Assembly (NCBI GenBank): GCA_026075535.2
Contig: AP026545.1
Coordinates: 682,001 to 746,000, forward strand
Origin: Tricholoma matsutake
Taxonomy: Eukaryota; Basidiomycota; Agaricomycetes; Agaricales; Tricholomataceae
Direction of reading: 5' to 3'
Length of the DNA: 64,000 nucleotides
Below the pieces are notes generated by a model. It made no database searches. It had not been told where the DNA came from and was given only the letters and a program-made list of their open reading frames with translations. Positions 17,629-62,716 of the stretch are shown here, piece by piece (the stretch's first letter is position 1; each line of letters opens with the position of its first letter). The translations under genes were made by a program, and so were the position numbers.

Positions 17629-17969
17629 TGACTGGGGATGGCCTACAGGCTACAAGCCTATACCAAAGAGAACAAATGTTGGATTCAGATGACATCCACA
17701 TAACATCAGTCATGTGATGCGAACTTATCAAATCAATCAGTCAATCTTATCAAGCTCTCATTCTTACTGAACTTTACACTCCCCCACAGAGTCCTGGAGG
17801 AATCCTCCAGGACTCACCAGGACTCCAGTGGGACTCACCATGAATCCAGTGGGACTCAGTACCCTAAAGTCATACCATAATGGAAAGTCAATTTGAGATA
17901 TCTTATGAGTTTCAAGTGCTTCGGACTTCATGAATTTCACAGAGTACCTACAAAATAAACTTGTTCAGA

Positions 17970-18048
17970 GCAGGGATTGAACTCTAAGAACTCATGATCA
18001 AGAATCACATGACAAACCAAACAAGTGCTTAACCAGTTGCCACAGGAG
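17970..18048 (-). other. tRNA-like unit (pol III A and B boxes), left arm of copy 1
   Basis: On the minus strand, TGGCAACTGGTTAAGC resembles an internal A box and GAGTTCAATCC (B-box core near 17975-17984) resembles the B box, about 50 nt apart as in tRNA-derived SINE heads. No complete tRNA cloverleaf is evident, so I do not call a tRNA gene. It points outward, toward 17766. Confidence 0.55.
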
Positions 18049-18154
18049 AATTATTAGCTGCCAATATAAAAGTGTATTTATACCCTCTAACTCAAACTTA
18101 GGTATATTTCTCTCTCAAAGCTCACAATTAAGATCAAATAAAATTTATTAACTA

Positions 18155-18396
18155 CATCCCTCGCATTGGACGCGAGGGATACACCATTAATTACATAAAA
18201 AAAAACCTCCCCCACACAAGGTGTGAGGGGGAGTCCTACAAATATATACATATAAAACTAATCTCCCCTTGTGGAGCACTACAATTATAAAGAAAAAGAA
18301 AGAAAAACCCTCACCCATGTAAAATGCGGGCGAGGGGGAAGGTATTACCATAAATTAAAAATGAAAAAAACTGCCCTATGCAAAATGCAGGGGCAG
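18155..18396. repeat. Series of imperfect hairpins, core of copy 1
   Basis: Four stem-loops follow each other: 18155-18180 (ATCCCTCGC...GCGAGGGAT), 18206-18233 (CTCCCCCACAC...GTGAGGGGGAG), 18308-18336 and 18371-18396. Stems are 8-11 bp and loops are A-rich or contain ATGC. The ORFs across 18271-18770 are driven by this composition. Confidence 0.7.
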
Positions 18397-19047
18397 CCTG
18401 GTGAATCGTGCCTGTTGTCCTGTCCCTGTCATCCTGGGTGCCAGGCCTTCATTGTTGCTGTCCTCATCATTGCCGTCCTGGGCATCGTTTCCATGGTGCT
18501 CCTGGTTGCTGTGCCCTTCCTGGTCATCGTTGCCATCCTGGCTGTCTCCCGCTGTGTGGTGGTGGCCATCATCGCCATTCCACCTGCAATCCACCCCATG
18601 AGCAGTGACTCATGGGGCTGGAGGTGGGTGGTGTATTGTTGGCCCTGTTGTCATCATCCATCATGGTTGGTGGCCATGCTTCGTGTTCTCGGGGTTCTGG
18701 TGCTGGTAGGGGGTTCTGGGGCTGGTAGGCAGTGGCATCATCATTGTCGTTGACTGCACACACTCACGATCCACCCTACGAGCAGAGGCTTGCAGGCGTG
18801 GGGTGGGTGTGTTGGGTTGTCTCGTGTCTGGCCATCATTGCCAGTAGAGTAGAACCTATAAAACAAAAGAAATGAGTTAGTTAGTTTATAAAAACAAAAA
18901 GCAAACAAAAAAAAATTATGTAGGGCCCATCCAGTCAGCTTGTTTGCGGGTGGTGGTGTTGTTACCAGTAGATTATAACCTGGAAAACTAAAGAAACAGG
19001 TTAGTTAGTTTATAAAAACAAAAAGCAAACAAAAAAAAACTTACATA

Positions 19048-19082
19048 GGGCCCAAACAACATGATCTGTGTCGTTTGGGCCC
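19048..19082. repeat. Palindrome with GGGCCCAAAC arms, decayed
   Basis: The arms GGGCCCAAACAACAT and GTGTCGTTTGGGCCC surround GATCT. In copy 2 the same palindrome has perfect 15-bp arms containing CG where this copy has CA or TG. Confidence 0.8.
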
Positions 19083-19337
19083 ATGTTCCATCCAGTCATT
19101 TGGGCCCATTTCCTGTGCATTGTGGCATGTTTGTTGTTGGCTAGAGGGGCAGTGGTTGATAATGGCATGGTGGTGGTGGTGAGAGAAAGGAGGGAGGGAG
19201 GGAGGTGGAGGGGGCGTTGTCAACGGTGGTGGTGGTGGTTGAATGATGAGCTGGAAATGTTGATGATGCGGCTGTATGCTTTGTCATACACAGCCACTTG
19301 ATGTGGTACTTAGATCAACTTATGTTGTATATTAGAA

Positions 19338-19414
19338 TGGCACTATGGTCTAATGGTATATTGCACCTGTTTAATTCAACCCTGAGGTCTGGGGTTCAAT
19401 CCTCAAAGGTTTCC
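19338..19414 (+). other. tRNA-like unit with T-run, right arm of copy 1
   Basis: TGGTCTAATGG (19346-19356) resembles an A box and GGTTCAATCC (19393-19402) a B box. A T6 run (19415-19420), a typical pol III terminator, follows at once. The unit points outward, toward 19730. Confidence 0.6.
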
Positions 19415-19741
19415 TTTTTTAATAGTAAGGACTCCTGGTTAAATCCCAGTGGATTCCCAGTAGAGTCCTGGTAGAGTCCTGGCAGAGTCCTGGTGGATTC
19501 CTGGTGGATTCCTGGTACCAGAGTCCTGGGGAATTCCAGGAATTCCTCCTGGAAGAGTGTAATTTACCAGGAATCAACCAGGAATCCCCCTGGAATGGGA
19601 AGAGTCAGGAATATATACTTGAGTGACAAATGGCTGGAACATTGGTTCCCAATAATCCTCCAGGATTCCTGGTCTTCCTGGCATTCCTGCCATGATTCCT
19701 CCATGATTCCTCCAGGAATACGTGGGGGAGGACGAAGACCT

Positions 19742-46698: not shown

Positions 46699-47611
46699 TG
46701 ATAGGTCCACCTTGTGCTCTAAGCTCTGGGAACGTCTCCAAATGCATCGACACATTACCACCCATGCTCCCAACCCCTATGAACCTCTACAAACCCCACA
46801 AAACCAGTCCAAAACAATTTCAAATGACTTCAAACAATTTCAAACAATTTCAAACAATTTCAAATGATTTCAAACAACTTTGAACAACTTTGCAGTACCT
46901 TGAACACCTTTTGCCACCATATGCCTATCGCACTGCACCACCCTTCAGACACATGCAGCACACCTTGCATGAGTTAGTGCATTGCATATCGAGCACCACT
47001 GGGCACAAGGAGATACAACAACAGGATTTTAGGACACGATTGTGGTGCTTCAACATTTCCATGATATATTGGATCAATAGGAGAGGTGTCCTTGATACAT
47101 TGTGACTCTATACATTTCCCTTCTCATCATCTTTCATTTATTTTATTATTTGCAAAGTTCTTTATTGTTTTATATCTTGCCTCATGTATTCCTCATGTTT
47201 TATTTCCTTCTAAGTACCATCTCTTCCAAACATATATAGCCTTGTACTAGCTACTTGGAAAAAAAAGAAAAAAGAGATTGTCTTCTCACATCAATCATCT
47301 GATTTAAGCAGTAATTTACCCTCCCCCACCTATTCCGGTCAGAGTCCAGTTATTCTGGTCAGAGTCCAGTTATTCCAGTTGGAGTCCAGTTATTCCGGTT
47401 GGAGTCCAATTATTCTGGTTGGAGTCCAGTTATTCTGGTCAGAGTCCAGTTATTCCAATTGGAGTCCAGTTATTCCAGTCGGAGTCCAGTTATTCTGGTT
47501 ATTCCAACCAGATTCTGGTTACTCCAGAGCCTCAACTTAGAGTATATACCCTAATGGATAGTCAAATTTCAAGTCTTAAGTTGTCAAAGTGCCTACAAAA
47601 TATATTTGTGC

Positions 47612-47698
47612 AGAGTAAGGATTGAACTCAAGACATCTTAATTAGAGTGATCACATAACAAACCAAACATGTGTGCTTAACCAGTTGAGCCACAGGAG
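47612..47698 (-). other. tRNA-like unit, left arm of copy 2
   Basis: Minus strand: GTGGCTCAACTGGTTAAG (47676-47693) resembles an A box, and TGAGTTCAAT (47621-47630) a B box. It faces outward and is clearly related to the unit at 17970-18048 (shared GACAAACC/AACAAACC and CACAGGAGAATTATTAG). Confidence 0.6.
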
Positions 47699-47759
47699 AA
47701 TTATTAGATAGTAATATAATGTTTATTCATGACACTCTAATTTTTTTTGAAGTAGTTAA

Positions 47760-48185
47760 TGTAAGGGGACTAGGGGGGTGCCCTGTGTGTTTTTCCTATT
47801 TTTTATGTTCGTCCCATATTTTTCCCCACCTCATTTCCTTCTATTCTTCATTTTCTATGATTTTTCCGGATTTTATTACTAATTTTCCCTTGCTATCATG
47901 TTTGTACATGTTGACACTTTTATATTTAGAGGCGGAGTACCCCTTCCAACACATACCCCTTGGTATGATGTCATTCGGCGGCCTTGATCCGCCTATCTCC
48001 GCCTTTTTCTATTTTTAGGTTATATTTGATTTTTGTCGTCTTCACATATACTGGGCATCAGCAAGGGGATCCTTAGAGTTTTCTCTTCGGATTTCCCTTT
48101 GCTAGGTGCGCCCCCAATCCCTGTATTATGTAGCATAATTTTAACTTCGGATTTCCCTTTGCTAGAGGCTTAGGTTGCCCTTATA
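47760..48185 (+). repeat. Ty3-C 5' LTR (426 bp)
   Basis: It starts TGTAAGGGGAC and ends GCCCTTATA. It matches 53370-53795 except at about 47887, 47906 and 47949. Confidence 0.95.
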
Positions 48186-48351
48186 GTAGAAAACTCTCCC
48201 CTAAGGCCTGAAAATCGCGAACGCGCTGCCCAAGATAGGCAGGTACGGACTGGACGGCGCTTCCCAAAGCTCCACAGAGTCCCTACACACCGTTCCAGAT
48301 ACTCTCGCCTTTATTACGCCGCCATTTTCGCCAAACGCGCTCCCTAGCGAC

Positions 48352-49470
48352 ATGGACGCATCAGAATGCTTCGACGCGCTTGAAAGCGACATTTCCGGAA
48401 TGTGCGCGCAAATCGACTCGCTTAAATCTACGATTGAAAACTTCGTTAGGACCCTCCAGGTTAACCCTACGACCAATAGTTCCCCCTTTACGACTCCAAG
48501 CGCACCCAACAATGACGTTTTGCCAAACACGTCCACTAAGGAACGTGCCCAGATCAAACCGTCCCCCCCCGCCGAATTTAATGGTGCACGTGCGCAGGGA
48601 CGTGCATTCCTTAATTCCTGTGAGTTATACATTAGTCTCCAGTCGCATCAATTCGTCGATGAGGCTGCAAAAATTTATTGGGCCTTCACATACATGAAAT
48701 CTGAATGCACCTATCTCTATGTGGACCGTATCCTACGTCAAACTAAAGAACTTGGTTCTCTACCTTTCTCCACTTGGGGTGACTTTCGAGCTGAGTTCAT
48801 ATGCCACTTCTGCCCCCTCAATGAATGCCACCAAGCAGTGACATGACTTGAGTCATCCGCTTACCACCAGGGACGTCGATCCGTGGACGACTATATCGAT
48901 GAGTTCAAGGATTTGGTGGACATGGCAGGATATGGGAGTGGGTTACCAGTGGTGGTGAAGTTCCGACGGGGGCTCAACCGAGAAATTCAGGACCAGATTG
49001 CACAGATGTTGGAAGGGCACCCAGCGGACGATGATATCCTTGCTTGGTATGAAGCTGCTTCACTCTGTGACGAGAACCAACTCACAAATGCAGCATTTAA
49101 TGCTGCATTCCATGCTCCAACTACCACTCATACACCCTACACCTTCAATCGAAGCCTTCCCCACCCTAACCCCATTCCTGTTCGTCAAACTCCCACACCA
49201 GCCATCAATGTCCCAGTACCAATGGATGTTGATGCAGCCCGCAGCCATGCACGTAAGTTGGATCTCTGCTACCATTGTGGGGAACCTGGACACAGGGCTG
49301 GAGTGTGTCCCCATCGTCAGGATATCCGCATGCTCACCCCCAAGGGACGAGATGAACTCCTGCAAGATTTGTTGGCACTTGTAGATGTTGAGGAAGCGAA
49401 GGATCAAGTTGCAGAGGAGGTTAAGCTGGAAGTTGTAGAGGAGCAGGATTTTCCTATTCGCAGCGAGTGA
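48352..49470 (+). pseudogene. Ty3-C gag
   Basis: ATG at 48352 opens MDASECFDALESDISG, a coiled-coil-like N-terminus, then the gag core (ALAFTYMKSE-type block, FSTWGDFRAEFICHFCPLN). A TGA at 48844-48846 interrupts it (HQAVT-x-LESSAYHQGRRSVDD), where arginine is expected. The same frame then runs to 49470 with SVDDYIDEFKDLVDMAG and one zinc knuckle CYHCGEPGHRAGVCP. The TGA is the only lesion seen in gag. Confidence 0.9.
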
Positions 49471-52400
49471 ATCGTACGCCCTCACTGCCTGTCCATAACC
49501 ACTTTGAAGTCTTGTCAGTTGAATCCCCAGAGAATGAATCCATTTCTGTGACTGCTCCCCTCTCTGACCCTTCAAAGTTGGCTAAAGACATACCTGCTCT
49601 CCCCATCTCTCCTTCTACTCCACGTCCCAAAATTAAATCATGGGAGTGTAAACTACCACGCAAGTATATTGTGGCATCCACTCCCTCTGCACATTCCTTA
49701 AACCTAGCCATCGAACTGCAGACGACCGACACTGGACAGATACTCGGTGTCTCTGCGCTCCTGGACTCTGGTGCGACTGGTCTCTTCATCGATTCCCATC
49801 TGGTACAACAACATCATCTAAATACTCGCTCACTCTCACGTCCAATACCTGTATATAACGTGGATGGATCCCCAAATGAAGCTGGTGCCATCCGAGAGGT
49901 TGCAGACCTGGTTCTCCATTACAAAGATCATAGTGAGTGTGCCCTTTTTGCTGTCACTCAATTAGGAAAGCAAAAGGTGATTTTGGGATATCCATGGCTT
50001 CGAGACCATAACCCAGAGGTCGACTGGCGCACCGGGGAGGTTACCATGAGCCGATGTCCATCCCACTGTCGGACGTGTTTCACAGAAGCCAGGCAAGAAC
50101 GTCATGGACAGAAGGTGGCAATACGACGAACTCAGAAGTGTCGTGCTGGACCCCTGCCTATACCTGAAGTGGAATTGGAAGGGGTTCCTGATCTAATGCT
50201 GGACTCGGATGATGATGATGAGGACCCAGAGGAAGTGGAGGAGGGTGATCGGATCTTCTACACTGCGATTCGCTCATCGCATGAGGTGTGTGCCACATCG
50301 AACATATCCCAACGCCTCGCCGAGGCCTTCCACTGCTAACTCCTCTACTAACTCCTTACTCCCTCATCTCCATGAGTTTGAAGATGTGTTCTCCAAGGAG
50401 TCATTCGACTCTCTTCCTGCGCGTAAGCCATGGGATCACACGATCGAACTCACCCCCGGCGCAACCCCTTCATCCTGCAAGGTCTATCCTCTCTCTCCGG
50501 AAGAACAACGGCAGCTTGACCAGTTCATCGACAAGCACCTGGCCTCTGGACGTATTCAACTATTGAAGTCACCCATGGCCTCTCCCTTTTTCTTTGTCAA
50601 GAAGAAGGATGGCTCACTTCGACCGGTTCAAGACTACAGAAGACTCAACAACATCATGGTCAAAAATCGCTACCCACTACCCCTCATCTCCAAACTCGTA
50701 AACCAGCTCCATGGAGCCCGATACTTCACCAAGCTCGATGTCCATTGGGGCTATAATAATGTGAGGATAAAGGAGGGAGATGAGTGGAAGGCAGCCTTTC
50801 GTACCAACCATGGTCTTTTTGAACCGCTTGTCATGTTCTTTGGCCTTACTAATAGCCCTGCCACCTTTCAGACCATGATGAATGACATCTTCCATGACCT
50901 CATCCTCAAAGGCGTTGTCTGCATCTATCTCGACGACATCCTCATCTTCACTCGCACGGTTGAAGAGCACCATCGCATCACGTGCCTCGTCCTAGAGCGA
51001 CTTCAATGGTACAAACTCTACCTTCGTCAGGACAAATGCGAGTTCGAAAGGACCAAGATCGAGTACCTCGGCCTGATTATCTCGGAGGGTCAAGTGGAGA
51101 TGGATCCTATCAAGGTAAACGGGGTCACAGCTTGGCCGATGCCCACGAACAAGAAGGAGGTGCAGTCTTTCCTGGGCTTCATCAATTTTTATCGGTGTTT
51201 TATCAAGGATTTCTCACATCATGCATGACCACTGTTCGACTTGACAGGAAAGGAGGCATGGAGGTGGGATAATGCACAACAGGAGGCGTTCGAAAAGCTT
51301 AAGGAGATGGTCACTTCCACTCCAATCCTTACCTTTGCTGACGATTTGCATCCTTTTCATGTAGAAGCCGACAGTTCTGACTTTGCGACGGGCACCGTGT
51401 TGTCTCAGCAGTCTCCGGAGGACCAGAAGTGGCATCCTGTTGCGTTCTACTCCAAAAGCCTTAGTGCTGTAGAGAGAAACTACGAGATCCATGACAAGGA
51501 GATGTTGGCAATAATGCATGCGCTTGAGGAGTGGCGACACTTCCTCAAGGGTGCCCAACACAAGGTGGAAATTTGGACGGATCACAAGAACCTCGAGTAC
51601 TTCATGACGGCCAAGAAATTGAACCGTCGTCAAGCTCGTTGGTCCCTGTATCTATCTAGATTCGACTTCTCCTTACACCACCGTCCGGGTCGCAGCATGG
51701 GGAAGACCGATGCCCTATCCCGATGTGCAGACCATGGGGATGGCAGCGGTGACAACCAAAACATTGTGCTGTTGCAGCCAGACCTGTTCACCATTTGGGC
51801 ACTGGAAGGCATCGTACCCCAGGGCAAGGAGCGGGACATTCTACATGACATTCGTCGCGCAAACCGTAGCGGTTTACATGAGGATGTTGTCGCCCGAGCT
51901 GTTAAAGAACTGAGGAAGGGATTGACCCTTTCCTTACATGCGGCAGAGTGGGCTGAAAAGGAGGACTTGTTGTATTTCAGGGATCACATCTATGTTCCCA
52001 ATGACCCAGACCTTCGCCGGCGCATCATATCCCAACACCATGACTCACAGATTGCTGGCCACCCCGGACGCTGGAAGACCTTGGAGCTCGCCTCATGGAA
52101 CTATTGGTGGCCACAAATGTCACGACTCATTGGTCAGTATTGTCGCACTTGTGACCTTTGCTTACGCACCAAGGTCCCGCGTCGCAAGCCTATTGGTGAG
52201 CTACACCCTCTTCCTGTTCCAGAGAGTCGTTGGGATGTCATCAGCGTCGACTTTGTGGTGGAATTGCCAGAGTCAAATGGGTTTGATGCGGTGATGTGCA
52301 CAGTTGACTCAGTGGTAAAACGCGCTCACTTCATTCCCACTCACACCACTGTCAGTGCCCTAGGTGCCGCTCGACTCTACCTCCACCATGTGTGGAAATT

Positions 52401-53358
52401 ACATGGACTTCCTGGTGCCTTCCTCTCGGATCGTGGCCCTCAGTTCATGGCAGAGTTCACTTGTGAGCTGTACCGACTCCTGGGGATCAAACTCCTCGCT
52501 TCAACTGCTTATCACCCACAAACTGATGGCCAGACAGAGCGAGTCAACCAGGAACTGGAGCAGTACATCCGCCTCTTTGTCAATGAACGCCAGGACGATT
52601 GGGATGATCTCCTTCCTTTGGCCGAGTTCGGGTACAACAACCATGTCCATGCTTCCACTCAACAGACCCCTTTCCTCTTAGACACTGGACAACATCCACG
52701 CATGGGATTTGAACCTCGCCAAACTCCCTCACACATCGAGACAGTGAATGAGTTCACAGAACGCATGAGGGATAGCTTGGAGGAGGCAAGGGCAGCCATA
52801 GCAAAGGTGAAGGACAACATGGCACGATTTTACAACCAATGCCACTCCCCAACCCCTCAGTACAAGGTTGGTGATCGAGTTTATCTTGACTCCAGTGACA
52901 TCTCCACTACACGTCCATCCAAGAAACTCGCTCATCGCTTCTTGGGACCTTTCCCCATTGTCAAGTGCGTTGGAACACATGCCTATCGTCTACGCCTCCC
53001 AACCTCCATGTCCAGACTCCATCCCGTCTTCCATGTCGTCAAATTGCTTCCAGCTCCCCCAGATCCGTTCCCGGGACGCCATTCACACCCACCACCACCA
53101 CCCACAGTGATCGAGGGAGAACCCCAATATGAAGTCAAGTCAATCTTGGACAGCTGTTTGCGTCGAGGAAAACTCCAGTATTTGGTACATTGGAAGGGTT
53201 ATGGGTATGAGGAGAACTCATGGGTCGAAGAGTCTGATGTAAATGCCCCTCGGTTAATCAAGGAATTCCACCGACGGCACACTGCTGCACCGCGTCGCAT
53301 TCAAGTCACGGACTTTGGTCGTATACGATTTCGAATGCATCGGGGCGATGCATCTTAG
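49467..53358 (+). pseudogene. Ty3-C pol: protease-RT-RNase H-integrase-chromodomain
   Basis: Protease: VSALLDSGATGLFIDSHLV (49750-49800), in the -1 frame relative to gag, overlapping its end; whether this is programmed or a mutation is unknown. One extra base near 50327 (FH-t-ANSST) shifts to the RT frame. [50 protein letters not shown] at 51226-51228 (SHHA-x-PLFDLTG) leads to RNase H (VEADSSDFATGTVLSQ). Integrase: HHDSQIAGHPGR, CDLCLRTKVP, SVDFVVELPES, LSDRGPQFMAEF, QTERVNQELEQ. Chromodomain near the end: YEVKSILDSCLRRGKLQYLV. Stop at 53356-53358. Confidence 0.95.
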
Positions 53359-53369
53359 AGAGGGGGTGA

Positions 53370-53795
53370 TGTAAGGGGACTAGGGGGGTGCCCTGTGTGT
53401 TTTTCCTATTTTTTATGTTCGTCCCATATTTTTCCCCACCTCATTTCCTTCTATTCTTCATTTTCTATGATTTTTCCGGATTTTATTACTAATTTTCTCT
53501 TGCTATCATGTTTGTATATGTTGACACTTTTATATTTAGAGGCGGAGTACCCCTTCCGACACATACCCCTTGGTATGATGTCATTCGGCGGCCTTGATCC
53601 GCCTATCTCCGCCTTTTTCTATTTTTAGGTTATATTTGATTTTTGTCGTCTTCACATATACTGGGCATCAGCAAGGGGATCCTTAGAGTTTTCTCTTCGG
53701 ATTTCCCTTTGCTAGGTGCGCCCCCAATCCCTGTATTATGTAGCATAATTTTAACTTCGGATTTCCCTTTGCTAGAGGCTTAGGTTGCCCTTATA
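53370..53795 (+). repeat. Ty3-C 3' LTR (426 bp)
   Basis: Near-identical to 47760-48185; directly follows the polypurine tract at 53357-53369 and is followed by GTTAA. Confidence 0.95.
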
Positions 53796-53826
53796 GTTAA
53801 GATCAAATTTTTTTAATTAACCACAT

Positions 53827-54088
53827 CCCTCACATTGAATGCGAGGGAGTGGGGATAATTGTAATTATATACATACACAAAAAATCCTCCCTCTCACAAG
53901 ATGCGAGAGGGAGTTTTATTTATATACATAAAAAGCTAACCCCTCGCGCCGAACACGAGGGGGGAGGTAAAAATATGAAGAAAAAAATCCCTCCCCCATG
54001 CAAAATGGGGGAGGGGGGGCACAATACTAATAAATAATTAAAAATACAAAAAAAATCCCTCCCCACACGAAGTGCGGGGGAGGGGGAG
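53827..54088. repeat. Five consecutive hairpins, core of copy 2
   Basis: Stem-loops at 53827-53847, 53886-53913, 53941-53963, 53989-54017 and about 54058-54088 have CCCTC/GAGGG-type stems of 7-12 bp and short loops (often ATGCAAAAT-like or CACAAGATG). Spacing is 50-60 bp. Counterparts are at 18155-18396 in copy 1. Confidence 0.75.
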
Positions 54089-54624
54089 GGGACGCAACCC
54101 AGCTGTTGTCTGTCGTTCCACCCACATTCCACCCCACGAGCAGTTGCTTGTGAGGCTGGGGGCGGGTGGTGTGTCGTTGTCGTCTCCTCTCCCTGCACCT
54201 GGGCATCATTCCACCCATGATCCACCCCACGAGCAGTTGCTCGTGAGGCTGGGGGTGGGTGGCTTGTCATCATTCGTTGCTGTTGTCCCCTGTTTGGATT
54301 TCTGTTTTTTTCTTTTTTTTTTTGGGGGGGGGGGGGGGTTTGGGCGCGTCAGTGCGATGTGGCACAAGTGCAGAGGTGGGTGGGTGCTTGCTAGGCAGGT
54401 ACCCCCCTTCTGGGGTCTCCTGGCATCCCTCTGCACCCTCCTAGGCTATGTCGACAGCCTCCCATCCCATTTGAATGGGGAGGAGGGGATCGGGTGGGCG
54501 TGGGTGTGCGTTGTGCGTTTTTCATTGTGGCAGGTCGTCCCCAGTAGTATAGAGCCTAAAAAGCAATGAATTACAATTAGTTGATTGATAAAAACAAAAA
54601 GAAAAAAGAAAAAAACTTATCTAT

Positions 54625-55261
54625 GGCCCAAATGATGTTGCCGTCATTTGGGCCCACGTTCCGTCCAGTCGGCTGGCATTTTTCGTCGTGGCAGGTCGTC
54701 CCCAGTAGTATACAACCTAAAAAGCAATAAATTACAATTAGTTAGTTTATAAAAACAAAAAGCAAATAAAAAAAACTCGCATAGGGCCCAAACGACGCGA
54801 TCTGCGTCGTTTGGGCCCGTGTTGGCTCGTTTGCGGGTGGTGGCATCGTTACTAGTAGATTATAACCTAGAAAACTAAAAAAATGAGTTAGTTAGTTTAT
54901 TAAAACAAAAACCAAACGAAAAAAACTCACATAGGGCCCAAACGACGCGATCTGCGTCGTTTGGGCCCGTGTTGGCTCGTTTTCAGGTGGTGGCGTCGTT
55001 ACTAGTAGATTATAACCTAGAAAACTAAAAAAAATGAGTTAGTTAGTTTATTAAAACAAAAACCAAACGAAAAAAACTTACGTAGGGCCCAAACGACGCG
55101 ATCTGCGTCGCGTGTTGGCTCGTTTGCGGGTGGTGGCATCGTTACTAGTAGATTATAACCTAGAAAACTAAAAAAATGAGTTAGTTAGTTTATTAAAACA
55201 AAAACCAAACGAAAAAAACTTACATAGGGCCCAAACGATGCGATCTGCGTCGTTTGGGCCC
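54625..55261. repeat. Tandem array, ~145-150-bp unit, each with a perfect long palindrome
   Basis: Palindromes at 54785-54819, 54934-54968 and 55227-55261 have arms GGGCCCAAACGACGC and GCGTCGTTTGGGCCC around GATCT. A truncated one starts at 55086 and a diverged one at 54625. Spacing is 149, 152 and 141 bp. Between palindromes each unit has GTTACTAGTAGATTATAACC and an A-rich block ending AAACGAAAAAAACT. Copy 1 keeps about two units (18840-19082). Confidence 0.9.
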
Positions 55262-55530
55262 GCGTTCCGTCCAGTCGGCTCGTTTGAAGGTGGTGGTGAT
55301 GGTGGCATTGGGTGTGGGAATGGTGGTGGTGGGTGCGCACGCAGTGGTGGTGGTAGAGTGGAGAGGAGGAGGAGGCGGCGTTGGCGACAGTGGTGGTAGT
55401 GGTTGTGAGCTGGCAGTCACGTGTCACGTGTCATGCGTATGCATACTTATCAATTATTCCGTTAATGGCTGTGATTAACTACGTACCTTGGTTGGGTAAT
55501 AAAAGTATTAAATGTATACCAAAGAATAAT

Positions 55531-55602
55531 TCCTTGGTAGCTCCTGGTTAAGCGTGCTGTTATGTATGCAGACCTAAGGTCGAGAGTTCGATTATTGATG
55601 TG
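55531..55602 (+). other. tRNA-like unit, right arm of copy 2
   Basis: TAGCTCCTGGTTA (55538-55550) resembles an A box and GAGTTCGATTA (55583-55593) a B box, with about 32 nt between. It points outward toward 55824. It differs in sequence from the left unit. Confidence 0.6.
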
Positions 55603-56227
55603 TGTGTCAAACTTTTATTTGGGAAAGCACGTGCATTCCGGTTGTGATGAGTCCGGTCAGATTCCGGGGATTCCGGCTGTAAATTGGATCCTTATTCCGA
55701 CCGGAATTGTGCTGCATAGGGAAAACTACATACAAAAAAATTTCCACCAGATTCCAGAAATTCCGGAAATTCCGGCCGGATGAACCGGAATCCAACCAGA
55801 ATAGGTGGGGGAGTGTAAAGTACTTGATTTAAGAGCAATTCTCTTGAGTCCAAGTCTCTTGTCTTAGTCCTGAAGTTCAGTGTTTTATGCCAAACTTCTT
55901 CAAACTTCTCATACTAGCTTCTCAAAACTATTGTCTATCATCTATCCACTCTCAAGGCCTTTCGAAATCTCTATAGTCTATCCTCAGTATCCATCAAATC
56001 CATGCTCATCCTCTACAAGCCCCTCGAACATCCTTGAACTTCTTCGAAGAGCTTTGTATGCCCTCAAACATCATCAAATATTATTGGATCTCCTCATGTT
56101 TAGTTCCCTTACTCTTGGGTAACAGCGGTGATATTTAGTACCACCTCGCAACCTTCCTCCAACTAGCATTATACTATTCAAGGCCTTTTTGGGGGTTTTG
56201 TTTGGGTTTCCTGGTCGAGCATCATCA

Positions 56228-60828: not shown

Positions 60829-62716
60829 TGATAGGTCCACTTTGGTGGCTGAGCTCTGAAAACAATACATCACACTTGGACACATTCTTCACAATGTCCT
60901 ATGATTTTGTGAATGTTTATGAATGCCTACAAATGCACAAAACAATGACATGACACTTCGAAACATTTCAAAAGACTTCGAGCCATTTTGAACAACTTCA
61001 GCCACTGTATTCTTATCGTACCGCACCTCGAACACATGTTCCCAACATTACACACACTGACATATCGCATTTCCGCCACAACAAACATGAGGAGACACAA
61101 TGGCTAGCACCTTAGCGCTGATGATGCTTGACCCAGAAACCCAAACAAAACCTTTCAGATGGTATAACACAAGTTAGAGGAAGGATGTGAGGCCCTCTAG
61201 ATGTCACCTGTCAGACCAATCATCCAATAGTCATAAAAGGACTGCTTGTCGAAGCAATTCGAAGCTAAAAGAATGTGTTTTATGGAATTTCGGAGAATTT
61301 TGTGGCTAGATTGATGAATTCGGAGTGTGCAAATATGTTCAGATGCAAGATCAGGGGACTAGACGAGTAGTAGAAGCAAAGCAAAGATGAATCAAGGGAA
61401 ACAAGAGCAAAAATAGCATAATGCGAGGATTTTCAAAGATTTTCAAAGAAGTTTAGTGTAAAACACCAGACTTTGGACTGAATAAGACTAAACTGAACTC
61501 TCAAATCACTGCGATCTGGGAGGAAGACGACAACTTTTTTTTTCTTTTCTTTGTATCTAGTACATCTTTTTATATAAAATAAAGAAACTACCTAAAAAGG
61601 CTAGAGAACATGAGGCAAACATGTGGAAAACTCGAGGCAAAAGACAATAGAAGTATATCAGAACAATAAAGCGAGACTAGAAAGGGTGAATATAACACAT
61701 GATCAAGAAATAATAAGAAAGAATAGCTAAAAGCAGACTGTCCTTGTTATAAATTGCATAAAATATCGGAAACTGCTTCGAGCGGATTGTATGCATGCAC
61801 ATGTGGTCAAATTGTGTTCAATATACTCGAGATAGTGTCCCATGTGTCCAGCATGCATCCGAACATTGTTCAAATAGGAAATACTGTGTCCAAAGATGTT
61901 TTTCGAGGTTCGAGGTTTTTTGAAGATTTTCGAAGTTTCTTCGGACTTTGTTTGTGGCCCGAAATTGGTGCGATATTGCTCGAAACTAATTCGGAACTCA
62001 TCTACGATGCTCCAAGTGTATATTCTAAGCTGTACGAAGTGTTCAAAGTCAATTGAAAGTGTGAAAACTGATATATTGGTGCTTGAACTGCGCTGGGGAC
62101 CTATTAGCGCGCATCGAGGTGCTTTTCAATGTCTTCATGATTTATTGGGACAACAATACAAGGAGATTTAATATATTATGTATATTGCATGTTTCCTTCT
62201 TATCAGTTTCTCATTTACTTTGTGATTTTGACACCTTTTTTACTGCCTTATGTTTACCACATGTTTTGCCTCATGGCCTTTTACCTTTTTAGTACTATCT
62301 CTCTAAAACATATATAGTTTGGTGTATTTACTGTTGACAATGCAGGAAATCATCTTCCCATATCGCATATTGTCTGACTTAAGGGTTCTGTTCTTGAGTT
62401 TTAGCTCAGTCCAAGTCCAAAACTCTGAAGTATTCTGCAAACTTTGTCATTTTGCTATTTAGTCTCTTGAGATTATTTTCAATTGTCCATCTATTCTGTC
62501 ATTGTCTTCTACAATCGTCTTCACCTATTGTCACCATCTCCCAAACTCATCAAAACCATTTCAAGGATTTTTGAATTCTTTTGCACCACAGCTAAACTCT
62601 TTCATATAGTTTTGAAATGCTTCGCTGTGTTTTGCACTACTTTGTACATGGTTTTGCAGAACTTTGCATCACTCCTTAAGGCTTTGTAACACACCTAACA
62701 GTCTTTGGTTAGTGCT
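60829..62716 (+). repeat. Ty3-B 3' LTR, interrupted and 3'-truncated
   Basis: Parts 60829-61118 and 62111-62716 are colinear with the 5' LTR. It starts TGATAGGTCCAC after the polypurine tract AAGGGGGAGGA. The last ~92 bp present in the 5' LTR (43300-43392) are missing, replaced by unrelated sequence. Confidence 0.85.
61119..62106 (-). mobile_element. Inverted solo LTR of Ty3-B family (988 bp)
   Basis: It reads TGATGATGC at the left (complement of the LTR end GCATCATCA) and GGACCTATTA at the right (complement of TGATAGGTCC with one change). GCGC flanks it on both sides (61115-61118, 62107-62110). The same site in the 5' LTR reads TTAGCACGCATCG near 42690, one CpG change from TTAGCGCGCATCG, and acts as the empty site. 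Confidence 0.85.

Follow-up and report, generated by a model that had tools for sequence, protein, structure and literature searches.

A stretch of 64,000 nucleotides from the genome of the fungus Tricholoma matsutake (contig AP026545.1, positions 682,001 to 746,000; here called the window, and C8:682001-746000 in our numbering) contains an element in which two tRNA-gene-like units point away from each other on either side of a core of hairpins and palindromes. This raises the question of whether the two units are separate short interspersed nuclear elements (SINEs) or parts of one mobile element and, if so, of which kind. In this study, we compared the window copy with the whole genome (161,040,721 bases in 13 contigs) and propose that it belongs to a family that is very probably a high-copy non-autonomous DNA transposon with terminal inverted repeats (TIRs), moving by a cut-and-paste mechanism. 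The family has inverted ends, a target-site duplication with a fixed length of 8 bp and no recognised transposase in the copies retrieved, which are the features by which such TIR DNA transposons are classified. The window copy spans exactly positions 47309-55825, within the following limits (strands are given where they apply):

47301-47308: left target-site duplication, GATTTAAG, 8 bp (flank comparison)
47309-47335, + strand: left TIR, CAGTAATTTACCCTCCCCCACCTATTC, 27 bp (arm comparison)
55799-55825, - strand: right TIR, 27 bp, reading inward AAGTACTTTACACTCCCCCACCTATTC (arm comparison)
55826-55833: right target-site duplication, GATTTAAG, 8 bp (flank comparison)

Full copies of the family were gathered by means of the terminal motif on contig C1 and by means of the core, which gave 42 distinct end-to-end copies including the one in the window; this sample is not random, as copies entered it through their resemblance to the ends or the core. 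The two 8-bp flanks are identical in 24 of the 42 copies and agree at seven of eight positions in 11 more, so that a match of at least 7/8 is found in 35 of 42, compared with 2 of 1,722 pairs when the flanks were mispaired as a control. An earlier note on this DNA, made from its letters alone, had reported a perfect 9-bp direct repeat; the flanks of the collected copies were checked for such a duplication and were found to hold 8 bp. The left terminal base is C throughout the 42 copies, whereas the right terminal base varies (C in 36 copies, T in six). The window copy is among the latter, and its terminal T equals the T of the left flank by chance and in this way supplies the ninth base. The near-complementary ends described in the same note are borne out, with the right limit moved to 55825; however, they are not long, since homology between the two arms of the window copy extends over only about 42 bp (83% similarity). 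Beyond this, the arms share array units and weak short stretches of similarity, one of which falls at the A box.

The family is abundant. With at most one mismatch, the 21-nt terminal motif occurs 1,241 times in the genome (611 + 630) and the reversed motif not at all; with at most three mismatches the numbers are 3,818 (1,911 + 1,907) and 35 (20 + 15), respectively, and the terminal motif is evenly split between the strands. Among 100 listed perfect ends, all of which are on C1, 64 form 32 opposed neighbour pairs less than 15 kb apart, and 23 of these pairs lie at a distance of 1.68-2.61 kb. If most ends are paired, the end counts together with a typical length of 2.2 kb lead to an estimate of about 1,900 copies and about 4 Mb. 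The left piece precedes the core or right piece in all 41 other full copies, as it does in the window copy, to which their left arms are 84-98% and their first core pieces mostly about 80-94% identical. In two copies, L059 and L065, the last 190-230 bp fall below the match cut, and two others, L079 and L083, combine the same ends with another core that is common to both. No transposase was recognised by eye in the long frames of the fetched loci or in the inserts of the long copies L064, L072, L077, L079, L083 and L084, and when five of the longest element-borne frames were compared with Pfam, no family scored over the cut-off and one frame gave two weak rows. L089 (C1:1935670-1943795) contains a nested element, Ty1/copia-like as judged by eye, with an open frame of 1,631 aa. 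L043 (C1:11.63 Mb) and L046 (C1:10.04 Mb) have their flanks and duplication in common, and probably represent one insertion that was later copied by segmental duplication.

Read from left to right, the window copy consists of an inverted end, a TTCC array, a leftward-pointing left (L) unit, hairpins, a palindrome array, a rightward-pointing right (R) unit, a TTCC/GGAA array and the second inverted end. The TTCC-rich arrays, the hairpin run and the tandem array with palindromes, all of which the earlier note had described, were recovered as follows:

47331-47499: left subterminal tandem array, 20-bp unit x 8.4 (TATTCCGGTCGGAGTCCAGT) (tandem-repeat analysis)
53820-54085: hairpin run of the CCTCCC...GGGAGG type (folding)
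54105-54265: repeated hairpin units of the CCACGAGCAGTTGCTCGTGAGG type (folding)
54738-55266: 150-bp tandem array with GGGCCCAAACGACGC-GATCT-GCGTCGTTTGGGCCC palindromes (repeat analysis)
about 55640-55800: right subterminal array rich in TTCC/GGAA (arm comparison)

A comparison of match starts indicates that the left array differs in length between copies in steps of about 20 bp. The stretch from 53810 to 54260 folds with a z value of -6.5, which was equalled in none of 100 shuffles, and the window core contains five perfect hairpins with arms of at least 10 bp compared with a mean of 0.01 in 100 shuffles. Across 36 full copies the mean number of perfect hairpins is 1.9 and the minimum 0 (0.04 in shuffles), and the hairpins are therefore not intact in every copy. 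Palindromes with perfect 15-bp arms are located at 54784-54818 and 54934-54968, and a third one, at 55227-55261, is 93% perfect. Approximate dinucleotide shuffles were used for the hairpin counts and for the strict box pattern considered below.

The earlier note had placed one outward tRNA-like unit on each side, and this proved to be correct for the window copy and to extend to the family:

47597-47692, - strand: L tRNA-gene-like unit, outward; A box 47676-47692, B box 47619-47629, T-run about 47597-47600
55538-55616, + strand: R tRNA-gene-like unit, outward; A box 55538-55553 (damaged), B box 55584-55594, T-run 55613-55616

A detector for an A box, a B box and a following TTTT gave outward matches in 91 of 104 arms, a number in which the left arm of a second window element (see below) is counted twice, and inward matches in none; its background was one match in 119,102 strand-bases of the window outside both elements, and 0 in 49,732. 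The right unit of the window copy itself, with its damaged A box, escapes this detector. A strict A-box/B-box pattern was found outward in 38 of 47 left arms and 39 of 55 arms sorted as right, and inward in none of the 102; the corresponding shuffles gave 5 of 940 and 5 of 1,100. Both boxes could be located in 95 of the 104 arms, at a spacing of 47-49 nt in 41 and of 65 nt in 40. In 93 of these 95 units TTTT occurs 15-60 nt past the B box, compared with 661 of 4,750 random starts; it occurs between the boxes in two, and in none of the 95 does a further TTTT lie between the T-run and the outer end. The L unit is present in 46 of 47 left arms and also in seven arms that had been sorted as right by their end letter, and the R unit in all but two of the 48 right arms that are then left (46, with that of L084 partial), the exceptions being L037, which has an insertion, and L011, which has another unit. 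At each end the unit sits on the inner side of the subterminal array and stops before it. In the 18 of the 104 arms inspected by eye, no obvious tail was seen where the unit meets the array, which was not a systematic search for repeats around single units. Judged by their boxes and T-runs, the units resemble small genes of RNA polymerase III (pol III) that end before the array, and not present-day tRNAs.

The right unit is not of the same kind in every member of the family. The window contains another element built on the same plan:

17769-19731: second, diverged element, with imperfect ends and no recognised duplication
17952-18042, - strand: L-type unit of the second element, 81% to L (BLAST, detector)
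19346-19423, + strand: right unit of the second element (TGGTCTAATGG ... GGGTTCAATCC ... TTTTTT), with no detectable similarity to R

In BLAST comparisons the right unit of this second element matches none of the other arms, and the right unit of L011 is related to neither R nor L, yet it has the same boxes and a T-run. Three right-end units with no detectable likeness to one another, two of them known from one locus each, thus share their position and direction, and this is the strongest hint that the units may matter to the element.

Transposase profiles have many matches in this genome, namely 60 for the Mutator-like (MULE), at least 165 for the KDZ and at least 151 for the hAT superfamily; a search with a P-element profile gave no match, nor did its controls, and it is therefore uninformative. 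The 8-bp duplication agrees with hAT and KDZ (Zisupton/Dileera) elements and not with the duplication of about 9 bp that marks MULEs. Passages of PMC12730594 give 8 bp as the usual length for hAT elements and describe 8-bp duplications for Zisupton and for a Dileera family, so that these superfamilies fit better than MULE. The family is like fungal KDZ (Zisupton/Dileera) elements in its duplication, and KDZ transposase is abundant in this genome, although none of the KDZ matches listed on C1 could be linked to these ends. With hAT it likewise shares the 8-bp duplication, and the hAT dimerisation domain is abundant as well. However, the ends of the family, C[AT]GTA / GAGTA, differ from the hAT terminal motif, and the target preference of hAT elements, nTnnnnAn, is not seen in its duplications, which have T at position 2 in 15 of 42 and A at position 7 in 12 of 42 cases.

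Taken as a whole, the reading that we favour, which includes a transposase acting in trans and units of the pol III type, appears to us likely. A transposase supplied in trans by a superfamily with 8-bp duplications, most likely hAT or KDZ/Zisupton-Dileera, would bind to the inverted ends and to the TTCCGG-type arrays, excise the element and insert it elsewhere. Cut-and-paste by such an enzyme is suggested by the ends, and the use of the arrays as a binding platform by analogy with other transposon families. As a weaker part of the proposal, the boxes suggest that the units could bind TFIIIC and pol III and give rise to short transcripts that stop at the T-run. The likeliest use of the units would be to keep both ends open for the transposase in a repeat-dense genome, rather than to serve retroposition; that they have a function is an idea we put forward tentatively. 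It is also conceivable, though rather unlikely, that the lineage depends on pol III, with a working outward unit at each end. The right unit would then have been replaced at least twice by unrelated tRNA-derived units in the same position and orientation, and the units, as handles that open the chromatin or mark a boundary or as sources of small RNAs, would give a non-autonomous element an advantage in the competition for transposase within a heterochromatic genome.

Several observations weigh against this reading. A clear duplication is absent in seven of the 42 full copies, one of which, L071, we read as having an 8-mer offset by two bases. The earlier note had envisaged an autonomous partner with the same ends; none was found, as none of the 54 listed C1 transposase matches (10 MULE, 29 KDZ and 15 hAT) lies inside the 32 listed opposed pairs of perfect ends. 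Three of the listed C1 matches are within 8 kb of a listed end, and one of these three, a KDZ match, is located 7.5 kb inside a single perfect end (C1:3003942-3011481), probably by chance. For the units, ARAGORN finds no tRNA in the window, the stretches scanned with Rfam (five loci, one window stretch and L014) gave rows below the threshold and no tRNA row, and no cloverleaf emerges when 41 R and 35 L units are folded to a consensus. When all differences are counted, the boxes vary less than the whole arm (0.077 and 0.227 for R, 0.026 and 0.095 for L, and 0.109 and 0.377 for four L subfamilies), and 131-157 of 5,000 random blocks are as low. However, CpG decay of the flanks may lie behind much of this contrast: with transversions only, a count meant to remove such decay, it is gone for R, where 2,149 of 5,000 random blocks reach values just as low, and weak for L (545 of 5,000). 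Between the four L subfamilies it persists (109 of 5,000), and there the boxes and T-run have no transversions and the flanks 0.23, so that box conservation lends modest support to the idea of working units. The same DNA transposon might carry units that are leftovers of captured SINEs or tRNA genes and play no role, to which we give close to an even chance. The missing tRNA fold and the lack of significant transversion-based conservation of the R-unit boxes would be expected of such passengers, and the window copy is whole although its A box is broken. What passengers would leave unexplained is that the units occur at both ends and, where detected, always face outward, that the right units of L011 and of 19346-19423, which BLAST relates neither to R nor to each other, have the same position and orientation, and that a comparison of four L subfamilies shows no transversion in the boxes and the T-run.

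The kind of transposon and the origin of the units could also be seen differently. The earlier note leaned towards Mutator-like elements, and the 60 MULE domain matches, with open frames of 414-718 aa in three of the best four, and the subterminal repeats would be in line with a non-autonomous MULE. However, the duplication has 8 bp and not 9, and MULE inverted repeats are long, 100 bp or more, whereas the ends considered here are homologous over the 42 bp or so given above. In addition, all 10 MULE matches listed on C1 fall outside the pairs of listed perfect ends and more than 8 kb away from any such end, and we regard this assignment as improbable. That two SINEs, or a dimeric Alu-like element such as megB1, came to lie side by side by chance or were retroposed together is highly improbable. 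The A and B boxes have tRNA-gene-like spacing, and PMC10627285 describes a dimeric Alu-like megB1 in fungi of the section Caligata, in the passages concerned as a copy outside the rRNA gene. In the family studied here, by contrast, the units face apart inside inverted ends, enter the array without an obvious tail, and are enclosed together by the 8-bp duplication. Genome-wide there are 1,605 matches to a 24-mer of the L unit (at most two mismatches) and 609 to a 21-mer of the R unit, while the ends number about 1,909 per side (at most three mismatches); with thresholds that differ in this way, neither unit outnumbers the ends of one side. Of the perfect units listed on C1, 36 of the 77 L units and 17 of the 32 R units have a perfect end in the correct orientation 120-900 bp further out, and no wrongly oriented end lies within 900 bp of any of the listed perfect units. 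These linkages rest on the perfect matches listed and are therefore lower bounds. Some of the listed perfect C1 units (44 of 86 L and 10 of 36 R) lack both a perfect end and a perfect partner among those listed within 4 kb. Units of this sort would suit solitary SINEs, and diverged ends may account for them; the earlier note had considered that arms might occur mostly alone with duplications of their own, which was not seen overall, such units apart. Among the fetched loci, mostly picked by end or core and in this respect biased, an end-like motif lies on the outer side of 49 of the 51 L units; one unit has none and one runs off its locus. Independent SINEs were accordingly rejected on the grounds that the duplication lies outside both ends in 35 of 42 copies, that the units face outward and that they are not in excess, and the claim of the earlier note that the whole moved as one unit, with L at one end and R at the other, holds.

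As a non-autonomous TIR transposon, the family resembles MITE-like (miniature inverted-repeat) or internally deleted members of superfamilies with 8-bp duplications in its inverted ends, duplication, non-coding nature, shared ends with variable cores and high copy number. It is unlike them in having an outward tRNA-gene-like unit inside each end. Typical MITEs are also smaller than the mostly 1.7-2.6 kb found here. Like tRNA-derived SINEs and the megB1 dimer, the units combine an A box and a B box at tRNA-gene-like spacing, the SINE box pattern being present in the 91 arms detected; unlike these, they form an outward pair inside a transposon, end in T-runs without an obvious tail, and are flanked by a duplication that lies beyond the inverted ends. 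Searches of open-licence PMC articles, judged by titles and abstract openings, brought up no previous account of this family or of ends built in this way, and term look-ups in PMC6980582, PMC12477816 and PMC6947457 returned nothing relevant on such ends. The combination that the earlier note could not name can thus be given a class, while its end architecture stands without a counterpart in the literature searched. According to the passages used here and Table 2 of PMC10211490, the telomere-to-telomere assembly of T. matsutake has 13 sequences and 161.0 Mb, of which 40.9 Mb are unclassified repeats; assigning the family to a class would account for an estimated 4 Mb or so, about 1,900 copies, of this genome. 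The same table lists 2,342 copies (1.94 Mb) of 'Small RNA' repeats, a class that might, speculatively, include this family through its tRNA-like units. Equally speculative is the possibility that the tRNA-Ile genes predicted in T. bakamatsutake, 275 of 277 of which have the anticodon TAT according to a passage of PMC10627285, are repeat-borne units like these. Should the units be functional, the family would move by cut-and-paste and bear pol III promoters at both ends by design, linking TIR transposons with the heads of tRNA-derived SINEs, two worlds that are normally separate. It would also offer a direct test of whether TFIIIC/pol III sites keep a transposon accessible in a repeat-dense, CpG-depleted genome.

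The CpG content differs between the parts of the element. Median observed/expected ratios are 0.21 for 47 left arms (maximum 0.47), 0.45 for 36 cores and 0.42 for 55 arms sorted as right, with single values of up to about 1.0 among the cores and right arms. The window copy has values of 0.18 in its left arm, 0.89 in its core and 1.0 in its right arm, and we read it as a young copy from a source whose left arm was already CpG-poor. The family may go back to a source in which recombination had joined an old left arm to a younger remaining part.

For the insertion in the window, the earlier note had pointed to an empty site in a related long terminal repeat (LTR). Its position was one base off (GACTTAAG together with the T occupies 62375-62383), and the site itself is weakly supported:

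62376-62383: candidate empty site, GACTTAAG, in a related but diverged LTR (weakly supported)

On the left flank, BLAST joins 47116-47239 to 62192-62317 (73% over 127 columns) and the match ends about 60 bp before the proposed site. On the right flank there is no collinear BLAST match at this site, and a joined global alignment is gappy.

The window copy was itself the target of a later insertion, which is not part of the element proper:

47760-53795, + strand: nested marY1-like Ty3 retroelement (LTR pair, size)
47755-47759 and 53796-53800: GTTAA, 5-bp duplication of the nested retroelement (flank comparison)

The nested element has a length of 6,036 bp and LTRs of 426 bp, and it is close in size to marY1 of T. 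matsutake, for which a passage of PMC10211490 gives 6,047 bp and an LTR of the same 426 bp. Its two LTRs are identical at 423 of 426 bases, which indicates that it entered the transposon fairly recently. Once the retroelement and one 5-bp repeat are removed, 2,476 bp remain, in agreement with the non-coding unit of about 2475 bp in the earlier note. In another copy, L051 (C9:7710105-7713967), the left arm is split by a solo marY1 LTR.

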